A DNA stretch of 64,000 bases from Marispirochaeta aestuarii (GTDB taxonomy: Bacteria; Spirochaetota; Spirochaetia; JC444; Marispirochaetaceae), in assembly GCF_002087085.1 (NCBI RefSeq), contig NZ_MWQY01000017.1, forward strand, positions 1 through 64,000, in the 5' to 3' direction. Below are positions 1,327-26,745 of this stretch, piece by piece. Position 1 is the first letter of the stretch, and every line of letters starts with the position of its first letter. The notes beneath the pieces are model-generated. The model had not been told where the DNA came from. It saw nothing but the letters and a program-made list of their open reading frames with translations, and did not search any database. The translations under genes and the position numbers were made by a program.

Positions 1327-2496
1327 TTATCCTTTGAAAATATTATCCCTGTGGTGTTTTAAGTATGATCTCATCCTATCGTTAACAACTAATCCAATTC
1401 GGCTATTGCTATTAGTAATTATATCTTTAATTATTGATTTTGATAAGACAGGGTCACTTGATAGGAGAATATTCCCATTATCATTTATAGCTATATATCC
1501 TTTATCAAATAAAGCATCATGCGCTGAACACAATGTGAGAACATTATCGAGATCTAATCGTCCTTCGCCGGTCCTCCATGGTTTTATATGGCTACAAATC
1601 AATAAGTTAGTTTCATCTACTTCACAAAGTAGACAACGGGAACTATCACGCTCTAGTGCAAGATTTCTAAGGCTACTCGTATTAAGTCTTGAATTTGTAA
1701 TTACTTTTATAGTCGTATCTCTACCTTCAAGGTTGTACTGTTCGATATTAATTTGACTGATTATTTCAGTTAAAGACTGTGCCTGAATGTCTATTTGCCT
1801 AAAAATATCATTCTCTATAACAAGATAAATAAAATCTGAATCATTATCACCAAGAATGTTTCTATCAAAAAAATACTCATACTCTAAAATCACTTCATTT
1901 ACATGGTTAAGATGTTCATTGTAAATTGGGAAAATGATATTCGGAACATATTCTATAAAATTTGGAGTATTTACCAACTCATAAATGACTCGATTATTTA
2001 TATTATCAATTAGAATTCTTGGGTATGTATAATATTGGTCGCTATTTGATATAAATAGTTTTTTATTCCCGAACAAACGATGTGTGGATTCTTGCAGATG
2101 TCTCTTCGTACTAATATTTTTAAATACTCTGAATGCACTTGCTTCCGCCGTTTTATTTTTTATCAGCATATCAATTTCATTAAAAATATTTTCATTAGCG
2201 CACTCAACAGAAACGTTCCCACCATCAAGACTAAATGATATGTTACCAGATAAGCATTCATTATTCAGTTCTTTACCACGAAGTAAGAGTATTCTGTTTT
2301 TATCAGAATCATTTTGGATATCATACCCAAAGTAAGACAAATTCCCATCAAATCCTTGTTTGTTTGGAATATCGAATGGTGATTCACTGACTATGTATTC
2401 AGTAACATCAGAACGTTTGAAATATACCTCTCTTTTGCTACAACAATAGTAAATTAATTTTATAATGACTGTATCTTTTTCATACGTTTTTAACAC
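1327..2496 (-). CDS. HNH endonuclease, probable restriction enzyme
   Basis: This is a 389-residue protein with a C-terminal HNH nuclease domain (about 274-340). Visible are the zinc-type CLLC pair near 288-291, CSHIKPW with the catalytic-region His near 303, RLDLDN, and LCSAHDALFDKG with His near 326. This spacing is typical of HNH restriction endonucleases of the SHIKPW type. The first 270 residues match nothing I recognise and probably carry DNA recognition. The GTG start at 2496 is supported by GGAG about 8 nt upstream. It precedes the adenine methyltransferase by 11 bp, which makes a nuclease-methylase pair the simplest reading. A role as a solitary anti-phage nuclease cannot be excluded. 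Confidence 0.8.
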   Translation of the reverse strand: MLKTYEKDTVIIKLIYYCCSKREVYFKRSDVTEYIVSESPFDIPNKQGFDGNLSYFGYDIQNDSDKNRILLLRGKELNNECLSGNISFSLDGGNVSVECANENIFNEIDMLIKNKTAEASAFRVFKNISTKRHLQESTHRLFGNKKLFISNSDQYYTYPRILIDNINNRVIYELVNTPNFIEYVPNIIFPIYNEHLNHVNEVILEYEYFFDRNILGDNDSDFIYLVIENDIFRQIDIQAQSLTEIISQINIEQYNLEGRDTTIKVITNSRLNTSSLRNLALERDSSRCLLCEVDETNLLICSHIKPWRTGEGRLDLDNVLTLCSAHDALFDKGYIAINDNGNILLSSDPVLSKSIIKDIITNSNSRIGLVVNDRMRSYLKHHRDNIFKG

Positions 2497-2519
2497 ATAT
2501 TACTCCATTGTAACACCCA

Positions 2520-2689
2520 GTTGAGCTGCAAACCGTTAAGCTGGCGCAGTTTGTGCTGTATTGTTACTTCATTATACAACGATTTCAGCACGGAATCACT
2601 TCAATTCTATCTCTCATATCTAACCTTAACTGCACAAACTGTGACAGTAGGTTTGACTGCTCCAACTGCAGGTTATGTTTGCACTTAAC
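2520..2689 (-). repeat. Imperfect palindromic repeat, copy A (attC-like)
   Basis: This fills the gap between the HEPN gene and the HNH gene. The ends form an imperfect terminal inverted repeat, GTTGAGCTGCAAAC (2520-2533) against GTTTGCACTTAAC (2677-2689). CAGTTTGTGC (2547-2556) is the perfect complement of GCACAAACTG (2632-2641). A core hairpin pairs TTAAC-TGCA (2626-2634) with TGCA-G-GTTA (2667-2675), leaving one bulged base, a feature also seen in folded attC sites. It shares its right half with copy B at 20-170. No integrase gene is in the window, so the link to an integron is unproven. Confidence 0.6.
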
Positions 2690-2739
2690 ACTCTTACCTT
2701 CTATTTATAAATACTTTCTTATTGTAATTCAATTCCGAA

Positions 2740-3711
2740 TTATTTTTTCCAACCTGGTTCTATAATTTTTACCTTCGTGTTTTCTATCTTCATGTTCCTT
2801 TCCATTTTATTCGTAATTGACATAATTAATCCAATAACATTTTCATATGTTTCTAATAAATACTCTTGCGTAAAACAATCATTATAATATCGACTTGTAT
2901 CCCCTTTCTTAAATCTTTCTATATCCAATTCAATAGCATCAACAGGATCAATATCATTTACATACATCAATAATTTTCTTATGTCATGGGTCTTTGGATA
3001 TTGCATCTTTTGTGAAATATAGATTTTTAAACATTTTTCGACTGCCATGTGTAACTCATAAAATGCCAAAGACAATGCCATACTGTTTTTATTTTCTACA
3101 ATCAAGCTTGCTGATTTCTTTAAATGAACCATAATACTATCTTTAAGATCTTTATTCTCATTTTCTATTTTTGCAGTTAATAAATTTGCTCGTATTGTCC
3201 TAATTTCTCTGATATATTTTCTAAGCTTTTTAAGTAATTTTTGATTTTCTGATTCAGAAAGATTTACTATGTTTGGCGGATCTTGAATATATTCGATTAT
3301 ATTCTCACCTCTTTGAACTGAAGAAGGGTAAATGATCCAATAGCTGTTATCCTTATTATGTCGTGTTAATATATATGGAATCCTTACAAGAAAGAAATCA
3401 TTATATATTCTAACAACTGCATGTCCAAAATCTGATGGACGCTCCTTCAACAACCTTTTTCCATATCTCCTACGGTACCATTCAAGTACATTTTGATAGA
3501 TATACTTAAACCATATTGAGTTCTCAAAGTCTTGCTTATCTGATATGACACTATCACCTTTCTTAATTGTTATATAGTTTTCTATTAATGCATAAGTAGC
3601 ATAGTACGGTCTCACAGACATTGGCTTTGATTCTTTAAAGTAATCATCAATATCATTCAATGTATAACTTATTATTTTTATAAAGTCATCTTCTATTATC
3701 TCTTCCTTCAT
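2740..3711 (-). CDS. HEPN-domain protein
   Basis: The 323-residue protein has two parts. The N-terminal half (to about 190) is rich in Tyr, Lys and Ile and unrecognised. The C-terminal part has the helical pattern of HEPN domains: AFYELHMAVEKCLKIYI near residue 215-231 followed by PKTHDIRKLL near 238-247. HEPN proteins are often toxins or RNases in defence loci, usually through an R-x4-6-H motif. I do not see that motif clearly here, so nuclease activity is uncertain. The gene is AT-rich and sits upstream of the HNH/methyltransferase pair, separated by palindromic repeat A. It may be an independent cassette or a third part of the same defence locus. Confidence 0.6.
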   Translation of the reverse strand: MKEEIIEDDFIKIISYTLNDIDDYFKESKPMSVRPYYATYALIENYITIKKGDSVISDKQDFENSIWFKYIYQNVLEWYRRRYGKRLLKERPSDFGHAVVRIYNDFFLVRIPYILTRHNKDNSYWIIYPSSVQRGENIIEYIQDPPNIVNLSESENQKLLKKLRKYIREIRTIRANLLTAKIENENKDLKDSIMVHLKKSASLIVENKNSMALSLAFYELHMAVEKCLKIYISQKMQYPKTHDIRKLLMYVNDIDPVDAIELDIERFKKGDTSRYYNDCFTQEYLLETYENVIGLIMSITNKMERNMKIENTKVKIIEPGWKK

Positions 3712-4404
3712 CCTACTTCACAACCACTGACCATGCAATTTTCTTAAATCTTAATCTTTCTACCCCTTGTGTCAACATAACATATTATAATCACCGCTTT
3801 TCCATACAACTAACGTGAGAGAACAATCTTATGGCAAAACTCTTGAACGGCCACCTTCGCTTCACCAGTAAGGCATGAAACACTCATCCTGTCCAAAAGA
3901 TAAAGACCCATAATATGATATTTAGCACTACCGTACCTGTATCAACCGTTGTCGGTATGCTGCGCGCTAAGAGAAGTTGGGCCGGGGTATTTTATTGAAG
4001 ATCATACAAAAGTGGCAGCTGCAACAATAGTTATCTTTACATTTTAAAACGAAATCCCAATTCGTCAACCTCTAATTCTATTAAAATGTAAATTCCTTCA
4101 ATGTTTTGTACTATCTATGACGTTGTGCATAGGTAGTATTATTCAGCGGGTGGTTTCCTATACGAAAAAGGTATAATGGCCCCAGGCGATTCAAACAAGT
4201 CTCTCTTATTTTTATGATTTTTATACTCATACAAGGTCAAAGAATCATACCGTTATTATTCAAAAAGGGTCCCGCCTTCATGATCCTTGTGATAATCCCC
4301 AATGAAGATTAAAGGACAACAGGGAAAGAAGTACATAAAAAGAGACCTCATCAAAAAATCCGGTTGACATCTGACCTAATCCATATAAAATATCTAAAAT
4401 TTAA
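3712..4404. other. Long AT-rich intergenic region with two hairpins
   Basis: I see no gene here. Two strong inverted repeats stand out. TTTACATTTTAA (4036-4047) pairs perfectly with TTAAAATGTAAA (4081-4092), with a smaller ACGAA/TTCGT stem inside its loop. TACTATCTATG (4109-4119) pairs with CATAGGTAGTA (4128-4138) with one G-T pair and an 8-nt loop. There is no recognisable copy of the palindromic repeats found at 20-170 and 2520-2689. The region marks the border between the AT-rich tract and the core-like sequence to the right, so it may hold the edge of an inserted segment. Confidence 0.5.
4364..4391 (+). promoter_or_regulatory. Candidate sigma-70 promoter of the degenerate kinase gene
   Basis: TTGACA at 4364-4369 is followed, after 16 nt, by TAAAAT at 4386-4391. 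The predicted transcript would begin near 4398, leaving a leader of about 19 nt before the ATG at 4417. Confidence 0.55.
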
Positions 4405-4416
4405 ATGGGGTTCATA

Positions 4417-5751
4417 ATGTTTAAAATAATAGAGTTAATAGAGAAATATAAACTAAGAATCTTTATAAGTTTGACATTAGTGTATGTTATGAGTTCTGCC
4501 GCCATAGTCAGGATCCCGGAAGTCAGCATCCAACATATAATATTTATTGCTGCTCCCACCGTGCTGTTCTCCCTGGTTCATTATATTGCAGGGATTACCG
4601 TGGGCCTTATATCCGCTGTAATCGTACTTGTCAGCTATTTTGAACAGCAAACAGTGGTTTTGACGGTAAATACCTATGTTCTGTATGGAGTAGGGGTCAT
4701 TATTAACACCTTTATGTCCTATCTTGTAGGGGCCTTGAAGGACGCGTATCTGCAGAATAAAAAGGCCTTCCAGGCGGTGGAGCAGTCAAAGGCGAAATAT
4801 CAGCATGTTGTCGACAACATTAAAGAAGGCATGGTCATCGTCGATACCGATGGATCGGTGATCTTCATGAACCGTTCGGCTTCGAACATGCTCAACCTGT
4901 CGATTAATAATCTTGGATTCAGCTTTCTCGACCTCTTTAAAATCAGCATACCCTTTGATGAAAAAAGTGGTATCGATGAGAGCGGGTTTGGATCGGTTAC
5001 AGAGTATGTCCTCGAATATGATAATCCGGAACTTGGTACACGGCAGATTGCGATTGCAGAAACGCCGTATGTAAGCCGGGAAGGGCGGATTTCCGGCAAT
5101 CTGAAATTCCTGCAGGACGTCACCGATACAAAGGAGAAGGAACTCACCATTGAACTTCTTAAAAAAAGAAATGAATACCTTTTTTCGGAGATGTACGACC
5201 GCATCGGCAATAATCTGACCACGATACATTCATACATAAATTTGTATCTTGGGAATGATGAGATACAGCTGTCGGAAGGATTGGACAAGGTGGATGATTT
5301 TATCCACACCATGGCGTTTATGAATTCCGAATTCCATAGAAATTTCCGGCAGCAGACAGTCAATCTTGAAAAATGCATACGCAAGATTGTCCATGATCTG
5401 TCGGAGAAGTATTATTACAGCCTGAACAACATTCGCATGGATCTGCTCCCCCGGGACATTCACCTGAATATCGCTATTCCCTTCAGCATTTTGCTTACTC
5501 TCATTGTTGCCACAATTTTTCTGATGCACAGGGATGAAATCATAAAACCCCAGGTTTCAATAAACACGAAGGAGAAGGATGGAAAAACCGTAATCATTTT
5601 TAGCGTAAACACAAAGGATTTCTTCGTAAACTTGAGAAAAAGCGATACCCGCAGGACTGAAAAAGATATTCTCTCTGCCCTGCTTATGCAGATACAGGGG
5701 AGAATTTCCATCCTGCCGAAGGCCGGCAACTCCATAAAGCTGGAGTTCTGA
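4417..5751 (+). CDS. Degenerate PAS sensor kinase-like membrane protein
   Basis: The 444-residue protein has about three or four hydrophobic segments in its first 110 residues, a short coiled region, a PAS domain (about 125-235), then a region aligned with HisKA_2 kinases. In active relatives such as the kinase at 15552-17390 the phospho-acceptor reads EVQHRIKN; here the matching stretch is EMYDRIGNN, with Asp (residue 261) where His belongs. The C-terminal part also lacks the NELVTN-type N-box and the glycine-rich ATP lid of HATPase domains. It is therefore probably not a working kinase but a membrane sensor or scaffold. I chose the ATG at 4417, because GGGG lies 6 nt before it; an ATG at 4405 is an alternative. 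Confidence 0.65.
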   Translation: MFKIIELIEKYKLRIFISLTLVYVMSSAAIVRIPEVSIQHIIFIAAPTVLFSLVHYIAGITVGLISAVIVLVSYFEQQTVVLTVNTYVLYGVGVIINTFMSYLVGALKDAYLQNKKAFQAVEQSKAKYQHVVDNIKEGMVIVDTDGSVIFMNRSASNMLNLSINNLGFSFLDLFKISIPFDEKSGIDESGFGSVTEYVLEYDNPELGTRQIAIAETPYVSREGRISGNLKFLQDVTDTKEKELTIELLKKRNEYLFSEMYDRIGNNLTTIHSYINLYLGNDEIQLSEGLDKVDDFIHTMAFMNSEFHRNFRQQTVNLEKCIRKIVHDLSEKYYYSLNNIRMDLLPRDIHLNIAIPFSILLTLIVATIFLMHRDEIIKPQVSINTKEKDGKTVIIFSVNTKDFFVNLRKSDTRRTEKDILSALLMQIQGRISILPKAGNSIKLEF

Positions 5752-5769
5752 TTTTACCGGAACGCAGTC

Positions 5770-6210
5770 TCAATAATTATAGAAGATCTCTACACGATGG
5801 TCAGAGAATTTCTTGCTCCGCAGCCTGTCCAGAAGAGAGCGGGTGAACCCTCCCAGCTCATATTGATCAATCTCTTCAAGCTCTGCCCAGGCATATTCCT
5901 GTGCCTCATCGTTAAGGATTACCGCTGAACCTTCCGTTCTGCAGAGGTAATCGATAAAGATAAAATGTTTCGGTTCATGGAAGGTATCGCTGAAGATGCT
6001 TTCCTTGATTCCCAGGAGTTCCGCGGAATAGATCCGGAGGCCTGTTTCTTCCTGAATTTCACGCCGGAGGGCATCTTCCATTTTCTCACCCAGCTCTATG
6101 TGCCCTCCGGGAATGACCCATTTGTTTTCCCATTTATGGGATTTACAGAGCAGGACTTTTCCTGCCGGGTTCAGAATTACAGCGCCGACAGTTGGTTCGG
6201 GATAGCTCAT
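5770..6210 (-). CDS. Nudix hydrolase
   Basis: The 146-residue protein contains the full Nudix signature G-x5-E-x7-REUxEExGU, seen as GGHIELGEKMEDALRREIQ followed by EETGL (about residues 35-58). The family hydrolyses nucleoside diphosphates linked to another group, using Mg bound by the Glu residues. The substrate cannot be told from sequence. The length is normal for a single-domain Nudix protein. It stands alone, convergent with the degenerate kinase gene 18 bp away and upstream of nothing on its strand. Confidence 0.85.
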   Translation of the reverse strand: MSYPEPTVGAVILNPAGKVLLCKSHKWENKWVIPGGHIELGEKMEDALRREIQEETGLRIYSAELLGIKESIFSDTFHEPKHFIFIDYLCRTEGSAVILNDEAQEYAWAELEEIDQYELGGFTRSLLDRLRSKKFSDHRVEIFYNY

Positions 6211-6315
6211 ATACAGAGAATACTATCAGAGAGCTGAAGCTTGATGGAAGATCGAGATTCGACAATTTTGCCGGTGTATGAGATTGACGGCTTGTAATTG
6301 TTCAGGGAACAGTTT

Positions 6316-9300
6316 TCATGATTTCTTTCCTATCATCGTCAGCACCACAGGCAGGATGGCCAGCGTAATGAAGGTCCCGAAGATCAGACCATAAGCGATG
6401 GATATGCCGATCGGAACGAGCATCTGTCCGCCCACGCTTTTTTGAAAGATCAGCGGAGACAGACCGACCGCCGTAGTGATGGTGGTCATAATGATCGGCC
6501 TGAAGCGCTGCAGGGCGGCCTCCCTGATTGCAGCGACGCGGGGCATCCCCGAGTTCAGTTTTTTGTTGAAGCAGTCGATCAGCACGACCGAATCATTGAC
6601 GATGATCCCTGCCAGGGCGACACTTCCGAGGAAGGAGATGAAGGATACCTCGACACCCATGATCATATGGCCGTAGAGGGCCCCCAGAAAACCGAGGGGA
6701 ATCAGGGAAAGCACCAGAAGGGGTTCTGACCAGGTTTTCATCTGAAAAAGCAGCAGTGTAAACATGATCAAAAGCGCCATTGCCATGCTGAAGAGCATCG
6801 ACTTCATCATCCGGTTTACCAGTTCGGCTTGTCCCGCTTTTGAGAGACTGACTCCGTCCACCTGCGCGAGTACACGTGGCAGGATATCTTCGTTTATCTC
6901 CTTGAGCACGGTATTGAGGTCGGCGATGTTCGAATCGATACCGGCCATCACCCGTATGGAACGATAGCCGTTTTCCCTTCGGATCTGCTGGATACCCTGC
7001 CTCAGCTGAAAGTCGGCTATCTCCCTGAAGGGTACGATCCCTCCTCCAGGGGTATGTATGGGAAAGTCTTCTATCCGGCCGATGGAGTTCCGCTCGCTGA
7101 GGGGTAGACGCAGCACCACCGGTATACTGCGCCGTCCTTCCCGTACCTCGAACAGTTCACTGCCGTAAAACCCCATCCGCACCTGGTTGGCCACCGAGGA
7201 GGTATGCAGTCCCAGGGCCTGTCCCCTCCGGTTGAGGTGTATAAGAAACTCCTTCTGCCCCAGGGGCATGTCGTCGCGGATGTCCTTGACACCCTCGATT
7301 TCCCGCAGGGCCTTTTTAAACAGTTCGGCCGCTTTTTCCAGCTGTCCTTCTTCCTTTCCGAGGAAACGGAAGGAAATCGGGTCGCCTCCGAAAAAGGTAT
7401 CCTTCCCGATGATGACCGATTCGGTTTCGGGAATATCGGGAAGTGCGCGGGCAAAGGCGTTGGCGAATTCGTTGACTGAATAATCCCGTTCGTCGTTTCC
7501 GATCAGCAGCAGATAGAGTACCAGATGTGAACTGTCGCCCCAGCAGAGGTAGTCCAGGATGGCGTTTTCATGGTCCGGGTCGGATTGGGCCCATTCACGA
7601 CCGAATTCACGAGCCCGGCCCTCGAATTCCCGACCGATCCGGTTGACCACTTCGGCGTTGGTACCGGCGGGAAACTCGATCTCCGCGTAGACGTAGGGAG
7701 ATACCAGCTCGGGAAAGAAGGCCGCCTTGATATGGTTTCCCGCAACGGCACCGACCGAGATGAGAATGGCACCGGCTGCCACAGAGAGTATCAGTGCCCT
7801 GTTTTGCAGGGCGAAGTCGAGAAAGGGGGCGTATATCCGATTGATGAGAACGTCCTGGGCCCTTTCGAGACTCCTTCTGACACGGTTAGACCGGCGGGCT
7901 TCTTCGGTCAGCGCCCTGGAATGGGACAGATGAGCCGGCAGCAGGATGACCGCCTCGATTATGGAGAAGGTCAGACTCACGACCACCACTATCCCGATTT
8001 GCCGGACATATTTTCCCATGTCTCCGTAGATGAAAAAGTAGGGCGCAAAGGCGGCAATGGTGGTGGCCAGGGAGACCAGCACCGGCGGGAGTACGTCGAG
8101 GGTTCCTTCGATGGCCGCCTGCCTGCGCTCTTTTCCGAGACGTTTCCAGTGATCATAGATGCTCTCGCCGATGACGATGCCGTCGTCCACCAGTATCCCC
8201 ACGATAACTATCATGCCGAAAAGGGACATCTCGTTGATGGTCATATCCATGGTCCATTCCAGAAAGAGCAATCCCATAAAGGAGATCGGAATGCCCATGG
8301 CCACCCAGAAGGAGACCCGACTGTTCAGGAACAGACCCAGGACCAGCAGTACCAGGAGAAGTCCGCCGATGCCGGAGACCATGAGGGTGTTCAAGCGTTC
8401 GTTAAGTTCTTCCACATCACGGATTGCGACCCGGTAGCTTAAAATACCTTCGTAGCGGCTGCGGTATTCCTCCAGTTGGCGGTCCACCAGGCGGGCGATG
8501 CCGATTACATCCTCTGTATTGCTGTACATGATGTGAAAGCCGATGGCCGGCTCACCGTTCATCCTGGTATGGACGGCGTTTTCCGCCCGGCCGCGGCGGA
8601 TGGTGCAGACGTCGCCGATCCGGACAGCGCGGCCCCCGCTCACCTTGACGACTATTTTCTCCAGTTCGGGGATGCTGGTCTTTTTCTCGTAGGTACGTAT
8701 CTGGATCTGTTCGTCGGTGGTCAGGACCGAGCCTGCTGTCAGATCCAGGCTGGAAGCACGCACGGCTGTATCGATCTCGTCCAGGCTGATGGAAAAACGC
8801 TCCAGTCCGCGGGGTTTGACTTCGATGATGATCTGTTCGGAGGGAAATCCCCAGGTCAGTATCTGGGTAACCTGCCCGCTGCGAATCAGTTCTTCCCTGA
8901 ACTCTTCAGCCGCCTGTTCGAGGGCCCTAAGGTCATCAGTGCCGTACATGAAGAGCAGCATTACCCGGTTCCACTCGGTCTCATGTACGATGACGGGGCG
9001 CTCGGCCTCTTCGGGATAATCGGGCAGGGTTTCCACCGTGGAGCGGACCTTTTCCATGAGGGTGTCCATGGGGTACCAGGGGGAAGTCTCCAGGCCGAAC
9101 CAGGCCGAATTGTCCCTGGAGGTGGCCGAGATGTTGACGATTCCTTCCAGGCCCAGGAGTCCTTCCTCCAGGGGCCGGACGATGTTTTCCTCTATTTCCA
9201 GGGCGGACGCCCCGCTCCAGGTAATATGTATGCTTATATAATCGAATTCGATCTTGGGCCAAATCCGTTTCTGCAGGTTCAACAGACCGAAGGTTCCGGA

Positions 9301-17582: not shown

Positions 17583-17611
17583 TTGCTATCCTTTTGTCGT
17601 TGTTCTATACT
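17583..17611 (+). promoter_or_regulatory. Candidate promoter giving a leaderless sigma-54 activator mRNA
   Basis: TTGCTA (17583-17588), a 17-nt spacer, then TATACT (17606-17611). The ATG at 17618 is only 6 nt further on, so the transcript would start at or next to the start codon. No ribosome site is present. Confidence 0.5.
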
Positions 17612-17617
17612 TCAGGT

Positions 17618-19117
17618 ATGCCTGCACACGTTCTCCTTACATGGCTTGGACAGCATGATCTTGATGCGGCCTTTGAAAAAAAAGAGGCGGGGCTCGGACC
17701 GATTGCTTCAGCCCTGGAGTCCGGTCTCTACAACAGGCTGGTGGTTCTATCCAACTACGATGCAGAAAAGTCCCGCCTGTACTGTTCCTGGATAGAGGTC
17801 ATGTATCCCAGGGTTGTTACCATTCTCTATCCTGTGGTCCTGACCAGCCCCACCGATTATGAAGAGATCTATATTGCCTGCGAAGGGGTTCTGCAGCAGG
17901 AAGAATCTGATGATACAGAACTGACCTTTCACCTGAGCCCCGGCACGCCGGCCATGGCTTCGGTCTGGATTCTTCTGGCCAGCGGCAGATCCCGCGCCAG
18001 GCTGATCGAGACCCACAGGGAAGAGGGGCTCAAAGAGGTCAGACTGCCCTTTGATATTTTTGCCCGGTACCGTCCGGAAAAAACCCTCGCCAGCCACATC
18101 TCCGCCATCGATGACGCTCTGCTTCCCGGAAGCCCCGCCTTTGACGGAATTATTCATGAATCTGCCGAAATGAGACGGGCGGTGGCAAAGGCCAAGAGGG
18201 CCGCGGTGTTTGAGGTGCCGGTGCTTCTTTTAGGTGAGTCAGGGACGGGAAAAGAGCTTTTTGCCAGGGCTGTTCACCATGCTTCGACCCGATCTTCCGG
18301 CCCCTTTATCGCGGTAAACTGCGGTGCAATCCCGGAGTCCCTGGCGGAATCTGTCTTCTTTGGTCATGCCAAAGGGGCCTTTACCGGAGCTGTGGAAATG
18401 CGTCCGGGATACCTGGAGATGGCAGACGGGGGAACCCTGTTCCTCGATGAGATCGGAGAACTCTCCCGGGACCTGCAGGTTAAACTTTTGCGGGTACTGA
18501 ACGACAGAAAGCTGCGGCGCCTGGGAGAGGACCAGGTCAGGGAACTCGATTTCCGACTGATCAGCGCAACTAATCGTAACCTTGCTCTCGATGCCGCCAG
18601 GGGCCGGTTTCGTCCCGATCTCTTTCATCGTATCGCTGTCGGGGTAATAAAGCTTCCCCCCCTGCGGGAACGCGGGCAGGATCTGCCGCTCCTTACGCGG
18701 CATATCTGCGCCAGGCTGAACCGGGAATTTTCATCCACCCCCGGATGGCAGGAAAAATCCTTAAATCCGGGAGCCATGAGGGCAATCGGCCGGCACCACT
18801 GGCCGGGAAATATCCGGGAGCTCATAAACACCCTGACCAGAGCTTTTGTCTTTTCCGGCGGGACAGAGGTCGACGAGACCGCGATCAGGGATTCCCTTAT
18901 CGATTTTGATACCTCCTCGGATGGTCTGCTGGACCTGCCTCTGGGAGAGGACTTTTCCATTGAGGAGATTATTTCCCGGACTGCTGTGCATTATCTGGAA
19001 CGGGCCATGAAACAGGCCGGTGGAAACAAAACCCGGGCGGCGAAGCTCCTGGGGCTTAACAGCTACCAGACCCTGAGCAACTGGCTGGAACGCTACGGGG
19101 TGGAAGAAGATTTCTGA
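17618..19117 (+). CDS. Sigma-54-dependent activator with RtcR/CARF-like sensor domain
   Basis: This is a 499-residue enhancer-binding protein that should open sigma-54 promoters. The N-terminal 150 residues are not a receiver: they contain [10 protein letters not shown] at the start and [19 protein letters not shown] near 107-125, resembling the CARF-type sensor half of RtcR, which responds to RNA-end or cyclic nucleotide ligands. The AAA+ core has GESGTGKE (Walker A), GAFTGA, and [12 protein letters not shown] (Walker B). The end has a Fis-like helix-turn-helix ([19 protein letters not shown]). No rtcA or rtcB is nearby, so the regulated genes are unknown. I chose ATG 17618 from the promoter position; TTG 17594 is also in frame. 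Confidence 0.85.
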
Positions 19118-21246: not shown

Positions 21247-21741
21247 TTAGAACAATGCAAGGGTACCTTTGATAAAATAAAAACCGATGACACCGCTTAC
21301 AGCGAGTTTAATCAGGATGGCCGCCATGGTTCCGGTGAATACCCCGAAGGCGGCTTTGAAGGGTCTGGATTCCGGTCGTTTCCAGATAAGTTCTCCTGCC
21401 AGGGCGCCCAGAAAGGTTCCGATTATGGTTCCGAAGGGCGGAAAAAAGATGGTACCTATAATCATGCCCGCAATGCTGCCCCGGACTCCCGCCTTCCCTG
21501 CACCGGAGAGGCGCGAGGCGGCCACGGGGAGCAGGGAATCAAAAAGCGCCGCCGCCAGGGATATAACTCCCAGCAGGATTATCAGCCACAGAGGGTATAT
21601 TTCCCATGATCCCGCCAGGGAAACCAGTATCAGTGAAACAAAGGCGACAGGAGGGCCGGGGAGTACCGGTGCAATGCAGCCGATGAGCCCTGCCAGGATA
21701 AGGAGACTGCCTGTAAGGGTGCTTAAGACAGCCGGGATCAT
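21247..21741 (-). CDS. DUF456 integral membrane protein
   Basis: The 164-residue protein belongs by pattern to DUF456: a Gly- and Pro-rich first helix pair (LLILAGLIGCIAPVLPGPP), a central glycine-rich segment with GTIFFPPFGTIIGTFLGAL, and a final hydrophobic helix. Function is unknown; some relatives are suggested to be small transporters. The ATG at 21741 overlaps the stop of the deacetylase-like gene (ATGA), which fixes the start and shows translational coupling. It is the last gene of a three-gene operon. Confidence 0.75.
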   Translation of the reverse strand: MIPAVLSTLTGSLLILAGLIGCIAPVLPGPPVAFVSLILVSLAGSWEIYPLWLIILLGVISLAAALFDSLLPVAASRLSGAGKAGVRGSIAGMIIGTIFFPPFGTIIGTFLGALAGELIWKRPESRPFKAAFGVFTGTMAAILIKLAVSGVIGFYFIKGTLALF

Positions 21742-22769
21742 CGGGAGTTCCGGTGTGCATCGAGAAAGCCCGTCAGAAAATTCCTGACGCATTCTCCCAG
21801 AGTGGATGTATTGTACCCCCCTTCCTGGAGAATCAGGGTCGGAAGGTCCAAGGCGGCAAAGGCTGCACCGATTTCAGGATAGTCTGCCGTATCGAGTCCG
21901 AGTCCGCCGATGGGATCATCCCTGTGGGTATCGAAGCCCGCGGAGATAATCAGATAGGACGGTTTAAAGTCCCTCACCTTCGCGAGTATCCTGTCCAGTG
22001 ACGCCAGGTACTCTCTTTTTCCCGCTCCCTTGGGAAGCGGTTCATTATGGTTGGTCCCTGCGGCCTGACCCTTCCCGGTCTCCTCGGCATAACCCCAGAA
22101 ATAGGGGTACTCCGAGGAAGGGTCGCAATGAACCGAAGAGGTAAAAACCGACTTGACCTCCTCAAAAAACTCCTGGGTACCGTTTCCGTGGTGGTAGTCA
22201 ATGTCAACGATGGCGACAGTTCCGGAGGGCAGCAGAAACTCGGCCGCAACAGCGGCATTGTTGAAATAACAGTAGCCTCCGAAGACCCGGGGACCGGCAT
22301 GGTGTCCCGAGGGGCGGCACAGGGCGTATACGCATCTCTCGGTGCCCTCGCGGATCATTTCTGCTCCCGTCAGGGCACTTTCGGCTGAAGCCCGGGCCAC
22401 CTCGTATGTCCGTTTCTTGATGGGAGTTACCGCATCGGTGCACCAGATTCCGCCCCAGAGAGGTTCATGGACCTTTTTTTTGAGTCCCGCACCTTCTCCC
22501 GGAAAAAGATCTGGATAAAACTCCTCTTCGTCGTTGGCCAGCGAGGCGGAGGTGTTGCGAATGTAGTCGTGGTAGGGATGGAGGCGCGAGATCAGGCGTT
22601 CCGGGTAGTGCTGTGCCGTAACAAACTCGAAATCTGTCGATTCCCCCAGGGCCTCCTTTATGCTTGCCACCCGGAGGGGTGTGTCCTTCACTTCGTAGGT
22701 TTCAGGTCCGAGCTGGTATTTCCAGAAGGGGTTATGGAGACTGTCGTTGTATTTTTCAATGACTTTCAT
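21738..22769 (-). CDS. Histone-deacetylase-like amidohydrolase
   Basis: The 343-residue zinc enzyme removes acyl groups from amines. Family motifs are all visible: RPSGHHAG (catalytic His pair, near 153), GGYCYFNNAAVAAE, VDIDYHHGNGTQ (zinc Asp and His, near 188-199), GFDTHRDDPIGGL (zinc Asp, near 275) and EGGYN near the end. Among bacteria this group includes acetylpolyamine amidohydrolases and AcuC; the substrate here is not certain. It overlaps the ATP-grasp/P1 gene by 14 bp upstream and DUF456 downstream, so the three are one unit and the substrate may be a small peptide or acylated amine handled by the fusion protein. Confidence 0.85.
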   Translation of the reverse strand: MKVIEKYNDSLHNPFWKYQLGPETYEVKDTPLRVASIKEALGESTDFEFVTAQHYPERLISRLHPYHDYIRNTSASLANDEEEFYPDLFPGEGAGLKKKVHEPLWGGIWCTDAVTPIKKRTYEVARASAESALTGAEMIREGTERCVYALCRPSGHHAGPRVFGGYCYFNNAAVAAEFLLPSGTVAIVDIDYHHGNGTQEFFEEVKSVFTSSVHCDPSSEYPYFWGYAEETGKGQAAGTNHNEPLPKGAGKREYLASLDRILAKVRDFKPSYLIISAGFDTHRDDPIGGLGLDTADYPEIGAAFAALDLPTLILQEGGYNTSTLGECVRNFLTGFLDAHRNSR

Positions 22770-24912
22770 GAATCTTTCTCCCTTTGTTCAGAAGCTCAAT
22801 AAGCCTGTCATGGGGAATCGGCGGACACCAGCGTTGCTGCCTGCCGTTCATGCCCCCGGAACAGAAGACGGCATTCAGCACCGCCTCCTCAGTTGCCTCG
22901 ATTACCGCTTCGTAGACAATATTTATGTGATTGTCCGAGATACACTTCAGGTTGATAAAACTCCCGGATGAGCGTGCCACCCGTGGTTTCCGGTTGCCCG
23001 TACTGAAGGCGATAATAATCTCACCGCTTGTGGATGCGGCATAGGATCCGGTACGCCCCAGCCCCAGGGCCGCCCGCCGTGAGATACGGTTCAGCTGGCT
23101 GCTGATAAGGGGGACGTCCGTCGCCACCACGACAATAACCGAACCTTCAGATAACTCCCTTCGGCCGGAATGCTCAAACTCGGTATCGAGCTGACGTCCC
23201 ACTACGGCGCCGTCAATTGTAAGGTTCCGCATCCTGCCGAAGTTTGAGAGCACAAGTACCCCGATGGTAAAGCCGCTTCCTTCCGGCAGATCGAAGATTC
23301 GGGAGGAGGTACCGATTCCTCCGGCGAAATCGAAGCTGGTCATCCCGGTCCCGGCACCTGTTGACCCCTGGGCGACCGGACCGGGGGAGGCCGCCTCAAT
23401 CGCCTTTATGGCGTCCTGGGCGCTGCAGGTTCCGATTCGTACATCATTGAGAAAGGAATCGTCCGCTTCACCTACAACCGGAAGCACCACGTCGGTTTCA
23501 GTCCCCATGGTGGGGTATTTACGGCTCATGTGCTGAATTACGCCGGCGTGAACCCTGCCGACGGAGTGGGAATTTGTCAGGAGAATCGGTGTTTCGAGCC
23601 AGCCTGTCTCCAGAACCTGGGTGAGTCCGGACATTTCTCCCACGCCGTTAAGTACAAAGCCCCCTGCGGCTATGCGGTTTGCATAGGCCTGCCCGGCGGG
23701 TAGTACAGCGGTTACCCCGGTACGGATGCTGCTCGATTCGGTCTGTCCGGGTATCTGCACGTTGTCCTCGATCCTGGTCAGGTGACCGACCCGGACACCT
23801 TTGACGTCGGTAATCGCGTTTACAAGGCCCGGATTCATGCGGCCGATCTGGATTCCCAGCTCTCTCACGCTTGTTCGGGGAACTGTTGAAGGGTGCCTGT
23901 TTTTCTGGTTCTTCCTGGCGGGACGTATGGCCATACCGTAACGGCGTGAAGCGGAACGGATTATAAGCCGCATCACATCCCTGAACTCAAGTCCCCGTTC
24001 CCGTGCGGCGGTCATAAGGGATGCGTTGGGATGCAGACTGGGCAGGGGATTCAGTTCAATAAAGTAGGGAGTCCCGTCGGTGTGCAGACGAATATCCACC
24101 CGCCCGAGATCTGGACAGGTCATGATATCGAATACCTGCCGCGCCATATGCAGGACCGACCGCTCTTCGCTGCCGTCTATGCGGGCCGGACAGATTACCT
24201 GAACAGCCCGGGCCGCTTCGCCTCCCTGCTTCATGTCATAGTCGTAAATATTGAATTTGCCGCCGGTCCTTTCCAGGTCAAAGGTGTGTTCCACGATGTC
24301 GAGGATTTTCCCCGGGTATCCCTCAATAAAGGGCACGCTCAGCTCCCTTCCGGTAATGAACTCCTCCACAACCAGCCCCTCGGGATACTGGCTGAGCAGT
24401 TCCGCTATCCGCTGTTCTGCCTCTTCTTTTGATTCAACAACTGACCTTTGTGTAATGCCCTTGCTGGATCCTTCGGAGTTGGGTTTTATTATCAGGGGAT
24501 AGCGGAGTTCTTCATCGATATGGCGGTTTTTTCCGCTTATAAGGACACCCTTCGGAACCCGGATACCCCGGGAAGAGAGCACGGTCTTTGCCAGATGTTT
24601 GTCCAGGTTAAGGTGGAGAAGCGAGGCGTTTCCGCCGGTAAAGGGAATGCCCATCTGTTCATACAGGCCGGGGTAAAAGGCCTCTCTGGAACTGCCGATG
24701 GTGCCCTCGGCAAGATTGAAGATAAGGTCGGGTTCGCTCTCCACCAGGCGCTCGATAACCTGATGAGGATTCCCGCTCACCTCGACAACCGTAACAGTAT
24801 GCTGCAGGCTGCTGATGGCACGGTATATTCGCTCGATGTCCTTGGGACTCAGCAGTTCTGCGGTGGCTTCGGAGTCGTCGGTCCGCAGGTTATATGCGAC
24901 GGTGATCCTCAT
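22756..24912 (-). CDS. Fusion of D-Ala-D-Ala ligase-like ATP-grasp and P1 peptidase
   Basis: This is one 718-residue frame with two enzyme halves. Residues 1 to about 320 are an ATP-grasp ligase of the D-alanine-D-alanine ligase type: LIFNLAEGTIGSSRE, PLIIKPNSEGSSKGI (ATP-binding loop), VVEEFITGRELSVPFIEG, and the Mg-binding end FIELNPLPSLHPNASL. After a basic linker (about 325-345) the rest is a P1-family aminopeptidase (DmpA-like): VRVGHLTRIED, GVTAVLPAG, LTNSHSVGRVHAGV, GAGTGMTSFDFAGGIGTSSR. Such P1 enzymes self-cleave to expose a nucleophile; I cannot place that residue by eye. A ligase joined to a peptidase suggests making and trimming of a small peptide. GGGAGG precedes the ATG. Confidence 0.8.
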   Translation of the reverse strand: MRITVAYNLRTDDSEATAELLSPKDIERIYRAISSLQHTVTVVEVSGNPHQVIERLVESEPDLIFNLAEGTIGSSREAFYPGLYEQMGIPFTGGNASLLHLNLDKHLAKTVLSSRGIRVPKGVLISGKNRHIDEELRYPLIIKPNSEGSSKGITQRSVVESKEEAEQRIAELLSQYPEGLVVEEFITGRELSVPFIEGYPGKILDIVEHTFDLERTGGKFNIYDYDMKQGGEAARAVQVICPARIDGSEERSVLHMARQVFDIMTCPDLGRVDIRLHTDGTPYFIELNPLPSLHPNASLMTAARERGLEFRDVMRLIIRSASRRYGMAIRPARKNQKNRHPSTVPRTSVRELGIQIGRMNPGLVNAITDVKGVRVGHLTRIEDNVQIPGQTESSSIRTGVTAVLPAGQAYANRIAAGGFVLNGVGEMSGLTQVLETGWLETPILLTNSHSVGRVHAGVIQHMSRKYPTMGTETDVVLPVVGEADDSFLNDVRIGTCSAQDAIKAIEAASPGPVAQGSTGAGTGMTSFDFAGGIGTSSRIFDLPEGSGFTIGVLVLSNFGRMRNLTIDGAVVGRQLDTEFEHSGRRELSEGSVIVVVATDVPLISSQLNRISRRAALGLGRTGSYAASTSGEIIIAFSTGNRKPRVARSSGSFINLKCISDNHINIVYEAVIEATEEAVLNAVFCSGGMNGRQQRWCPPIPHDRLIELLNKGRKIHESH

Positions 24913-24939: not shown

Positions 24940-26745
24940 CTACATTCCGGAGTATTCCGCGATCGCTCTCAGAAAATGGCTTCCGTACTTTGCCAGTTTT
25001 ACCTCGCCGACTCCGGGTATATCCAGCATTTGATCACTGTTCTGCGGCAGGCGGCTGGCCATGGCCAGAAGGCTTGTGTCGGGAAAAATCATGTAGGGGG
25101 GGAGCCCCGCCTGGTCCGCGAGTCTTTTTCGCAGGCCTCTGAGCACTTCGAAGAGCTGACTGTCATGCTTTTCCGGACGGCTTTTTATTCTATCCGAATG
25201 CATTCCATCCTCATGAAGCTGTCCGAAAACCTCGAGTTCTCCCCGCAGTACCTGCCTGGCTTTCCCGGTGGGGAGGAGGCTTCCGTGCTGCGGGTCCTGC
25301 GTCAGAAGGCCCTGCCGGATAAACTGACGGGAAAGATGAAACCACTGCCGCTTTGTGTATTCCAGTCCAATCCCGTAGGTAGAGAGTTGGTCATGCCCCC
25401 GGTCCAGAACCTTTTGGGACTTTGACCCCCGAAGGACATCGATTATGTGCCCCGCGCCGAAAATCCGTCCCGTACGAATAACACAGGAGAGGAACTTCCG
25501 GGCTGCCAGGCTGATGTTGTCCTGATGTTCTGTTTGTTTTTTTTCCCTGCTGCAGTTATCACAGTGTCTGCAGTTATCGCCTTCAAAAGCCTCGCCGAAG
25601 TAGGAGAGCAGGGGTATTCTCCTGCATATCTCGGACTCGGCATAATTTATCATTGCCTTCAGGTGCAGTTCCGCGGCTTTCTGTCCCTTTTTATCCTTTC
25701 CGGAGATGAAATATCGAATTGTCCGTATATCGCCGTAGCCGAACAGCAGAAGACAATGGGAATCAAGACCGTCGCGTCCTGCCCGTCCGATCTGCTGATA
25801 ATAACTTTCGATATTCTTGGGTAGATCACGGTGCAGGATAAAACGGATGTCCGGCTTGTCTATGCCCATACCGAAAGCGACGGTTGCAACCATTATCTGG
25901 ACATCGTCCTTTATAAAAGCCCGCTGGTTTGATCGGCGTTCTTCGTCGCTTAGGCCTGCATGGTATGGGAGCGCCAGGAATCCCCGGGACCGAAGCATAG
26001 AAGCCGTTTCATCCACCCTGCGGCGTGTGGCACAGTAGATTATCCCGGATTGATCCGGGTATTGCCGGATAAAGTCCAGCATCTGGGAATCCGGATCCGA
26101 CTTGATGCGTACCTCGAGGAAGAGCCCGGGGCGGTCAAAACCGGCGACAAAGACTTCCGGCCGGATCAGATTGAGGCTGCTGCAGATATCATGGCGTACC
26201 TGCTCTGTTGCAGTGGCCGTCAGGGCAATCCACACGCTCTTCGGGAATCGTGTACGCAGGGCGGCTATCTGACGGTATTCGGGCCTGAAATCGTGTCCCC
26301 ACTCGGAAATGCAGTGGGCTTCGTCTATGGCTATACAGGAGATATCCAGTTGCTCAAGAAACCCGGCAGTTCGTTCCTGCAGCAGGGTTTCCGGTGCAGT
26401 ATACAGCAGTTTTATCTCTCCACGGCTCAGCAGCCCCATGTTCTGACGGTATTCCTCAGCAGATAAGGAGCTGTTCAGACAGACGGCGGGTATACCGAGC
26501 TCCTTCAGCTGGGACACCTGGTCTTCCATCAGGGAGATAAGGGGAGAAACGACCAGAGTTAGTCCCTCCAGCACGAGGGCGGGAATCTGATAGCAGAGGG
26601 ATTTTCCACCCCCCGTGGGCATTACAACGAGGGTATCCCTGCCGGCGAGGACAGACCCGATAATTTCCTTCTGCAGCGGCCTGAAACTGTCAAAACCGAA
26701 AACCCTCTTGGCAATTTTTTTTGCCTCTGTTGTAGATCCCATCAT
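24940..26745 (-). CDS. recQ: RecQ-type ATP-dependent DNA helicase
   Basis: The 601-residue 3'-5' helicase acts in recombination and fork repair. Motif I is MPTGGGKSLCYQ (about 41-52); the DEAH box is in IAIDEAHCISEWGHDFR, and motif VI includes YYQQIGRAGRDG. The zinc-binding RQC region has CRHCDNC near 390, and the C-terminus has an HRDC domain (LRGLRKRLADQ through LDIPGVGEVKLAKYG). The order and length match bacterial RecQ. The gene starts with two adjacent ATG codons; AAAGGG lies just before. It is monocistronic, 27 bp upstream of the ATP-grasp fusion gene on the same strand. Confidence 0.93.
   Translation of the reverse strand: MMGSTTEAKKIAKRVFGFDSFRPLQKEIIGSVLAGRDTLVVMPTGGGKSLCYQIPALVLEGLTLVVSPLISLMEDQVSQLKELGIPAVCLNSSLSAEEYRQNMGLLSRGEIKLLYTAPETLLQERTAGFLEQLDISCIAIDEAHCISEWGHDFRPEYRQIAALRTRFPKSVWIALTATATEQVRHDICSSLNLIRPEVFVAGFDRPGLFLEVRIKSDPDSQMLDFIRQYPDQSGIIYCATRRRVDETASMLRSRGFLALPYHAGLSDEERRSNQRAFIKDDVQIMVATVAFGMGIDKPDIRFILHRDLPKNIESYYQQIGRAGRDGLDSHCLLLFGYGDIRTIRYFISGKDKKGQKAAELHLKAMINYAESEICRRIPLLSYFGEAFEGDNCRHCDNCSREKKQTEHQDNISLAARKFLSCVIRTGRIFGAGHIIDVLRGSKSQKVLDRGHDQLSTYGIGLEYTKRQWFHLSRQFIRQGLLTQDPQHGSLLPTGKARQVLRGELEVFGQLHEDGMHSDRIKSRPEKHDSQLFEVLRGLRKRLADQAGLPPYMIFPDTSLLAMASRLPQNSDQMLDIPGVGEVKLAKYGSHFLRAIAEYSGM

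Follow-up and report, generated by a model that had tools for sequence, protein, structure and literature searches.

What use does a bacterium make of a single protein that carries both a ligase and a hydrolase for amide bonds? This question is raised by a 64,000-nucleotide stretch of the Marispirochaeta aestuarii genome (hereafter, the window), which lies on contig C17 of a 4.2 Mb assembly in 78 contigs. On its minus strand, a gene at 22756..24912 encodes a 718-aa protein, called here the fusion, in which an ATP-grasp ligase is joined to an S58 aminopeptidase, and the next gene (21738..22769, minus strand) encodes a 343-aa deacylase of the histone deacetylase or acetylpolyamine amidohydrolase type (HDAC). 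In the known pathway to N-epsilon-acetyl-beta-lysine (NeABL), an osmolyte, AblA makes beta-lysine from lysine, and the epsilon-amine of this product is acetylated by AblB. We propose, giving the idea about an even chance, that the fusion and HDAC form a laterally spread osmoadaptation add-on to this pathway, in which the fusion would reversibly conjugate beta-lysine or NeABL. The link to NeABL rests on co-occurrence of genes; the substrate, the product, the direction and the physiological use (conjugation, storage or release as salinity changes) are inferred.

Results

The assignment of the fusion was based on open reading frame (ORF) reading, Pfam, PDB sequence matches and a comparison of 37 copies. 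The ORF is a single frame of 718 codons with no internal stop. Pfam recognized Dala_Dala_lig_C (residues 129-318, E 1.3e-30) and Peptidase_S58 (residues 365-694, E 1e-103; 347.5 bits against a gathering score of 23.9). PDB sequences of Ddl enzymes matched residues ~51-323 and those of D-/beta-aminopeptidases residues 341-713, the best for residues 349-713 being the D-aminopeptidase 2drh. These matches bear out the preliminary description, which had read a D-Ala-D-Ala ligase-like half and a DmpA-like half into the 718 residues. Full-length, one-frame homologues with 90% identity in a congener (G002) and 88% in a spirochaete of another class (G119), together with the 37 collected frames, rule out a chance fusion and a start, stop or assembly error. 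It had been asked whether the halves always occur separately or whether two genes lie here; neither is the case, as copies from many phyla have it as a single gene.

The copies were collected by a scan of species genomes, which gave 515 relatives, the best 80 of them being kept, and the search patterns lay inside the S58 half alone, so that the counts are lower bounds. At least 37 fusion frames were obtained, namely 32 loci among the best 80 of 515, the window, L058, L059, L205 and L208, with ligase halves 44-91% identical to that of the window. These 37 copies are not independent, since two of them (L127 and L135) share one genome and many come from metagenome-assembled genomes (MAGs); L125, L137 and L138 are partial because of a contig end or a frameshift.

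The Ddl-type ATP-grasp half (residues 1-330; 23923..24912, minus strand) was recognized by PF07478, Ddl alignments and its ATP/Mg-site residues, and the residues of both halves were mapped by PDB sequence alignments to Ddl and to DmpA/beta-aminopeptidases. Across the 37 copies, K105, K143, E183, E190, K228, R271, D273, E286, N288 and S298 were invariant in every covering copy. Seven of these (K105, K143, E183, E190, D273, E286 and N288) match K97, K144, E180/E187, D257, E270 and N272 of DdlB, which we take to be its ATP/Mg site. The position of DdlB Tyr216, presumably a functional loop residue, is Gln in 30/37 fusions and never Tyr, which suggests that the ligase half may use an acceptor other than D-Ala.

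The S58 (DmpA/BapA) half (residues 346-718; 22759..23877, minus strand) was assigned by PF03576, PDB sequence alignments and residue conservation. Its predicted self-cleavage site, G590/S591 with S591 as the nucleophile (23140..23145, minus strand), is aligned with G249-S250 of DmpA (1b65), and the pair was invariant in 35/35 covering copies. N557 and S629 were invariant in all covering copies, and residue 631 was Glu in 34/35 and Asp in 1/35; we take these three positions to be the catalytic Asn, Ser and Glu/Asp of the S58 family. In addition, E482 was kept in 36/36 covering copies and is aligned with E133 of BapA, presumably the Glu that binds the substrate amine. Judged from their sequences, both halves appear to be active, with complete predicted active sites. 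An AlphaFold2 model built from 33 aligned fusions (without the partial L125, L137 and L138 and without L130) was of moderate quality (mean pLDDT 75.8, pTM 0.50); in it both halves are folded, and the linker between them (330-344) is weak. With this model, Foldseek found 2drh, 5tzb, BapA and DmpA at target TM 0.81-0.87 and Ddl enzymes at target TM 0.69-0.86.

The HDAC gene (PF00850, E 1.6e-65; conserved motifs) overlaps the 3' end of the fusion by 14 bp in the window. HDAC stands directly downstream of the fusion in 27/37 copies, and the 14-bp overlap is the commonest arrangement, which agrees with the earlier claim of coupled fusion and deacylase genes. The HDAC of the window has the Hist_deacetyl domain, and its nearest PDB sequences were acetylpolyamine amidohydrolases; H156, H157, D191, H193, D280 and Y319 (the His-His pair, metal ligands and Tyr) were present in 27/27 HDAC copies. 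Pairwise identities of HDAC and fusion co-varied (r = 0.91, 351 pairs). The ten copies without an adjoining HDAC were L125, where the contig ends, and nine copies of a group that we call clade II (L128-L135 and L144), whose ligase halves are 44-58% identical to that of the window. A long fusion-HDAC gap in L137 is not real, since a frameshift splits the fusion. This frameshift, in Candidatus Electrothrix aarhusensis (L137 9986-12156), cuts the gene into two frames and may be either decay or a sequencing error.

The association with the NeABL pathway was examined by a whole-genome search for ablB with TIGR03827 (GNAT_ablB) at the model cut-off in 36 genomes, 34 of them with a true fusion. ablB exceeded the cut-off in 30/36 genomes, and all 30, including that of the window, were among the 34 true-fusion genomes. 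The control gene for ectoine synthase (ectC) exceeded its cut-off in 1/36. In spirochaetes, 2/2 fusion genomes were ablB-positive against a background of 11/392 (Fisher 7e-4); in Prolixibacteraceae, 6/6 against 47/140 (Fisher 1.1e-3); and in Desulfobulbaceae, 5/6 against 7/73 (Fisher 8e-6). Some genomes of these paired tests had pointed to the families tested; without the previously known genomes, Desulfobulbaceae gave 3/3 (P 1.8e-4).

Gene order points in the same direction. ablB lies directly upstream of the fusion in L124, L130 and L118 and 5.5 kb away in L144; AblB was recognized by neighbour clustering in L118, L130 and L144 and by a DNA-level search in L124. The order is ablA-ablB-fusion in L130 and ablB-fusion-HDAC in L118. 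The L124 cluster, from a Verrucomicrobia MAG, runs on one strand throughout, with ablA (962-2287), a protein with a mechanosensitive-channel (MscS-like) domain (2284-3177), a sodium:solute symporter (3174-4589), ablB (4586-5419), the fusion (5769-7925) and HDAC (7912-8934). This order and the adjacency in L130 and L118 connect the fusion-HDAC pair with osmotic adaptation. Over 571 kb of locus stretches, four ablB genes were found, where 0.14 were expected under a rough null of random uniform placement in 4 Mb genomes.

The hosts of the fusion include Neomarinimicrobiota, cable bacteria and other Desulfobulbaceae, Bacteroidota, Melioribacteraceae, Verrucomicrobia, Kiritimatiellae, Sumerlaeota, Omnitrophota, Gastranaerophilales, Riflebacteria, Acidobacteria, Gemmatimonadetes and the archaeon Methanococcoides; in the phylum scan of spirochaetes it was present in 2/392. 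Among named isolates with the fusion (Tangfeifania diversioriginum, Marinilabilia salmonicolor, Marinilabilia rubra and Methanococcoides vulcani), M. salmonicolor and T. diversioriginum carry both genes and M. vulcani carries the fusion alone. Fusions from different phyla share about 75-80% identity, and identity to the copy in G119, the spirochaete of another class, is 88%, a pattern which suggests that the gene spread by lateral transfer, the fused form reaching archaea.

For the origin of the ligase half, a tree of 47 ATP-grasp rows was made, including 16 of the 37 fusion halves picked for spread. All fusion halves grouped in a single clade (100/99), with a sister (joint clade 100/99) made up of the first of the two domains in tandem ATP-grasp proteins from Bdellovibrionota and Myxococcota, whose genes are directly followed by an S58 gene that is not fused (L141 933-4156, L148 8759-12331 and L150 8849-12414). 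Since the ligase genes of the sister clade adjoin an S58 gene, ligase and S58 were neighbours before fusing, and the arrangement in these three loci is likely the pre-fusion state. More distant kin occur in spirochaete operons with lysine 2,3-aminomutase, one or two Ddl-like ATP-grasp ligases, a GNAT protein and sometimes a GNAT-HDAC protein. One such operon is found in the window genome (L061 6882-12736, G000:C8) and similar ones in many of L066-L109. These operons look like a further beta-lysine ligase system, this one unfused; by counting on the alignment, the aminomutase of the window genome keeps both aspartates equivalent to D293 and D330 of 2a5h, which we take to bind the lysine side chain. 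Among other arrangements, a MAG recorded as Nanoarchaeota (L146 1242-5805) has in one run an aminomutase-ATP-grasp frame, a further ATP-grasp piece, a protein of 451 aa that Pfam did not match and S58, and a Bdellovibrio-type trio of S58, ATP-grasp and GNAT occurs at L149 9995-12747 and L153 9983-12715.

Discussion

The substrate of a Ddl-type ligase is an amino acid whose amine is free and whose carboxylate the enzyme activates; an S58 beta-aminopeptidase, in turn, requires a free N-terminal amine. In NeABL, both the carboxylate and the beta-amine are free; thus, one molecule suits both halves of the fusion, and its epsilon-acetyl group suits HDAC. In the reaction that we propose, the ATP-grasp half would activate NeABL or beta-lysine at its carboxylate, forming an acyl phosphate, and the activated compound would be joined to an amine, from either another amino acid or a further beta-lysine molecule. 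Once self-cleaved at G590/S591, the S58 half would hydrolyse the resulting beta-aminoacyl amide, by analogy with glutathionylspermidine synthetase/amidase (GspSA), and HDAC would take off the epsilon-acetyl group and make beta-lysine reusable. The preliminary description had spoken of an unknown peptide or acylated amine that is produced, trimmed and moved. Production and trimming keep their place here, with beta-lysine or NeABL added as a candidate from the co-occurrence with ablB; movement by a small membrane protein finds no support.

Several observations weigh against this proposal. ablB was below the cut-off in the fusion genomes G423, G439 and G449; G445 also misses it, having two ablB fragments, one at a contig start. 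The genomes of two unfused arrangements (G451 and G454) have no ablB over the cut-off. Without the previously known genomes, the result for Prolixibacteraceae weakens to 2/2 (P 0.098), and in the same family unfused S58 genes also lean weakly to ablB (5/8 against 42/132, Fisher 0.08). In the window genome, ablAB lies on contig C28 and the fusion on C17. Such an HDAC was found nowhere in 7/8 clade II genomes; therefore, deacetylation is not obligatory, and we regard the fused enzyme as the core of the system and HDAC as accessory. Co-occurrence with ablB is not a reaction, and the two traits could each follow saline, anoxic habitats, which ectC, however, does not. Furthermore, passages of a 2005 review report little if any turnover of NeABL in the methanogens studied (PMC1224877), which speaks against routine recycling in these organisms; other passages of it describe the enzymes making certain other solutes, including a neutral dipeptide, as unexplored as of 2005 (PMC1224877).

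Two rival explanations keep the domains but change the purpose. The locus may be a catabolic or salvage module without any new solute, in which HDAC turns the cell's own or scavenged NeABL into beta-lysine, the S58 half cuts peptides to release beta-amino acids and the ligase only recycles or protects them. An HDAC of the acetylpolyamine type fits deacetylation and reuse, a sodium:solute symporter is part of the L124 cluster, and the ectoine degradation pathway likewise uses a deacetylase; however, the fully conserved ligase half would cost ATP in a catabolic route and the clade II genomes retain the fusion without HDAC, and we consider salvage unlikely. It is rather unlikely, to our mind, that the product is a beta- or D-amino-acid peptide (a secondary metabolite or signal) unrelated to NeABL, with shared habitat behind the link to ablB. 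The nearest named families are indeed Ddl and D-aminopeptidase, and the sister arrangements L141 and L148 of Bdellovibrionota and Myxococcota occur in genomes without ablB over the cut-off, but shared habitat does not sit well with ablB in 30/34 against ectC in 1/36 or with the fusion adjoining ablAB genes in L124, L130 and L118.

The other two concern what the ligase makes. ATP-grasp ligases polymerise amino acids elsewhere, as in cyanophycin, and the ligase might thus make beta-lysine oligomers of low osmotic weight at downshift, which the S58 half would depolymerise, HDAC having first freed the epsilon-amine. As the usual product of a Ddl-type enzyme is a dipeptide, and clade II lacks HDAC, such a storage polymer seems to us quite improbable. 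That the protein is a D-Ala-D-Ala ligase of cell-wall synthesis carrying a D-peptidase is hardly credible. Among families with solved structures, Ddl comes nearest to the N-terminal half, but the two NCBIfam Ddl models gave 152.9 bits (cut-off 243) and 131.1 bits (cut-off 245.65), and on these below-cut-off scores we rejected it; moreover, another gene of the window genome groups with Ddl in the ATP-grasp tree, the Tyr216 position is Gln in most fusions, and the fusion also occurs in Methanococcoides, an archaeon without murein.

Among known systems, our proposed conjugating enzyme can be compared with GspSA, which has a ligase and an amide hydrolase for a like bond on one chain, as a CHAP cysteine amidase and a GSP_synth domain. 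The fusion likewise pairs an ATP-grasp-type amide ligase with an amide hydrolase, but by S58 and Ddl-type domains, neither CHAP nor GSP_synth being among its Pfam matches. With DmpA, BapA and PH0078 of the S58 family it shares the fold and the nucleophile region, whereas those enzymes stand alone and here S58 is fused to a ligase. The HDAC of the locus has the fold family and metal-site motifs of acetylpolyamine amidohydrolases and class II HDACs but is cotranscribed with a ligase-peptidase fusion. AblA and AblB make NeABL, and the fusion and HDAC are extra to them, since in the scan for the fusion 41/47 ablB genomes of Prolixibacteraceae are without the pair. The genes for N-acetylglutaminylglutamine amide, a dipeptide osmolyte, also combine an ATP-grasp ligase with a peptidase; they comprise a GNAT-ATP-grasp fusion, an asparagine-synthetase-like gene and an M42 hydrolase, which were not seen at the fusion locus.

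A 2009 amidoligase survey may already mention a ligase-S58 architecture. In the open-access literature, we found no described system with ATP-grasp, DmpA/S58 and HDAC together; the excerpts of a paper on bacterial deacylases (PMC11532494) lack the terms ATP-grasp, aminomutase and acetyl-beta-lysine. The gene pair is real, widespread and undescribed in the open-access literature searched; its domains are known, and the combination and the tie to an osmolyte pathway are new. A two-gene candidate in isolates makes testable both the conversion or recycling of NeABL and the natural role of a beta-aminopeptidase. In addition, an apparent osmoadaptation gene crosses phyla, with the fused form in archaea.

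Neighbouring genes and other observations

Downstream of HDAC lies a gene for a DUF456 membrane protein (21247..21741, minus strand; 164 aa from the likelier start; PF04306, E 1.9e-26). Its start had been listed at 21792, which is probably 17 codons too early, the ATG at 21741 being likelier. From this ATG, ORF reading gives a gene that overlaps the HDAC stop by 4 bp (ATGA), and the congener locus L059 is arranged alike. The gene is probably co-transcribed with the fusion and HDAC, yet outside the conserved system: DUF456 after HDAC was seen in the congener G002 only, and no DUF456 match occurred among the displayed neighbours of fusion loci outside the genus. As an essential part of the system it is therefore ruled out, and the role in movement earlier given to it was not supported.

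PADLOC models matched 0 families for the three proteins, so a defence role was set aside, as was carriage of the fusion on plasmids or phages, of which no record had a place covering 80% of the query. A Na+ riboswitch and ablA are treated in passages of PMC9337991. Rfam gave zero matches in the window and, as to riboswitch control, none at the fusion in the 7 loci searched out of 13 from relatives.

Upstream of the fusion, a RecQ helicase gene on the same strand (24940-26745, minus strand) ends 27 bp before the fusion start, an order kept in G002 and not elsewhere among the neighbours displayed. Group II intron pieces were observed downstream of the DUF456 gene of this congener (L059 2512-5327). 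Elsewhere in the window, a sigma-54 activator gene (17594-19117, plus strand) stands beside a chemoreceptor gene, and its best NCBIfam model was RtcR, with 316 bits, below the cut-off of 650.

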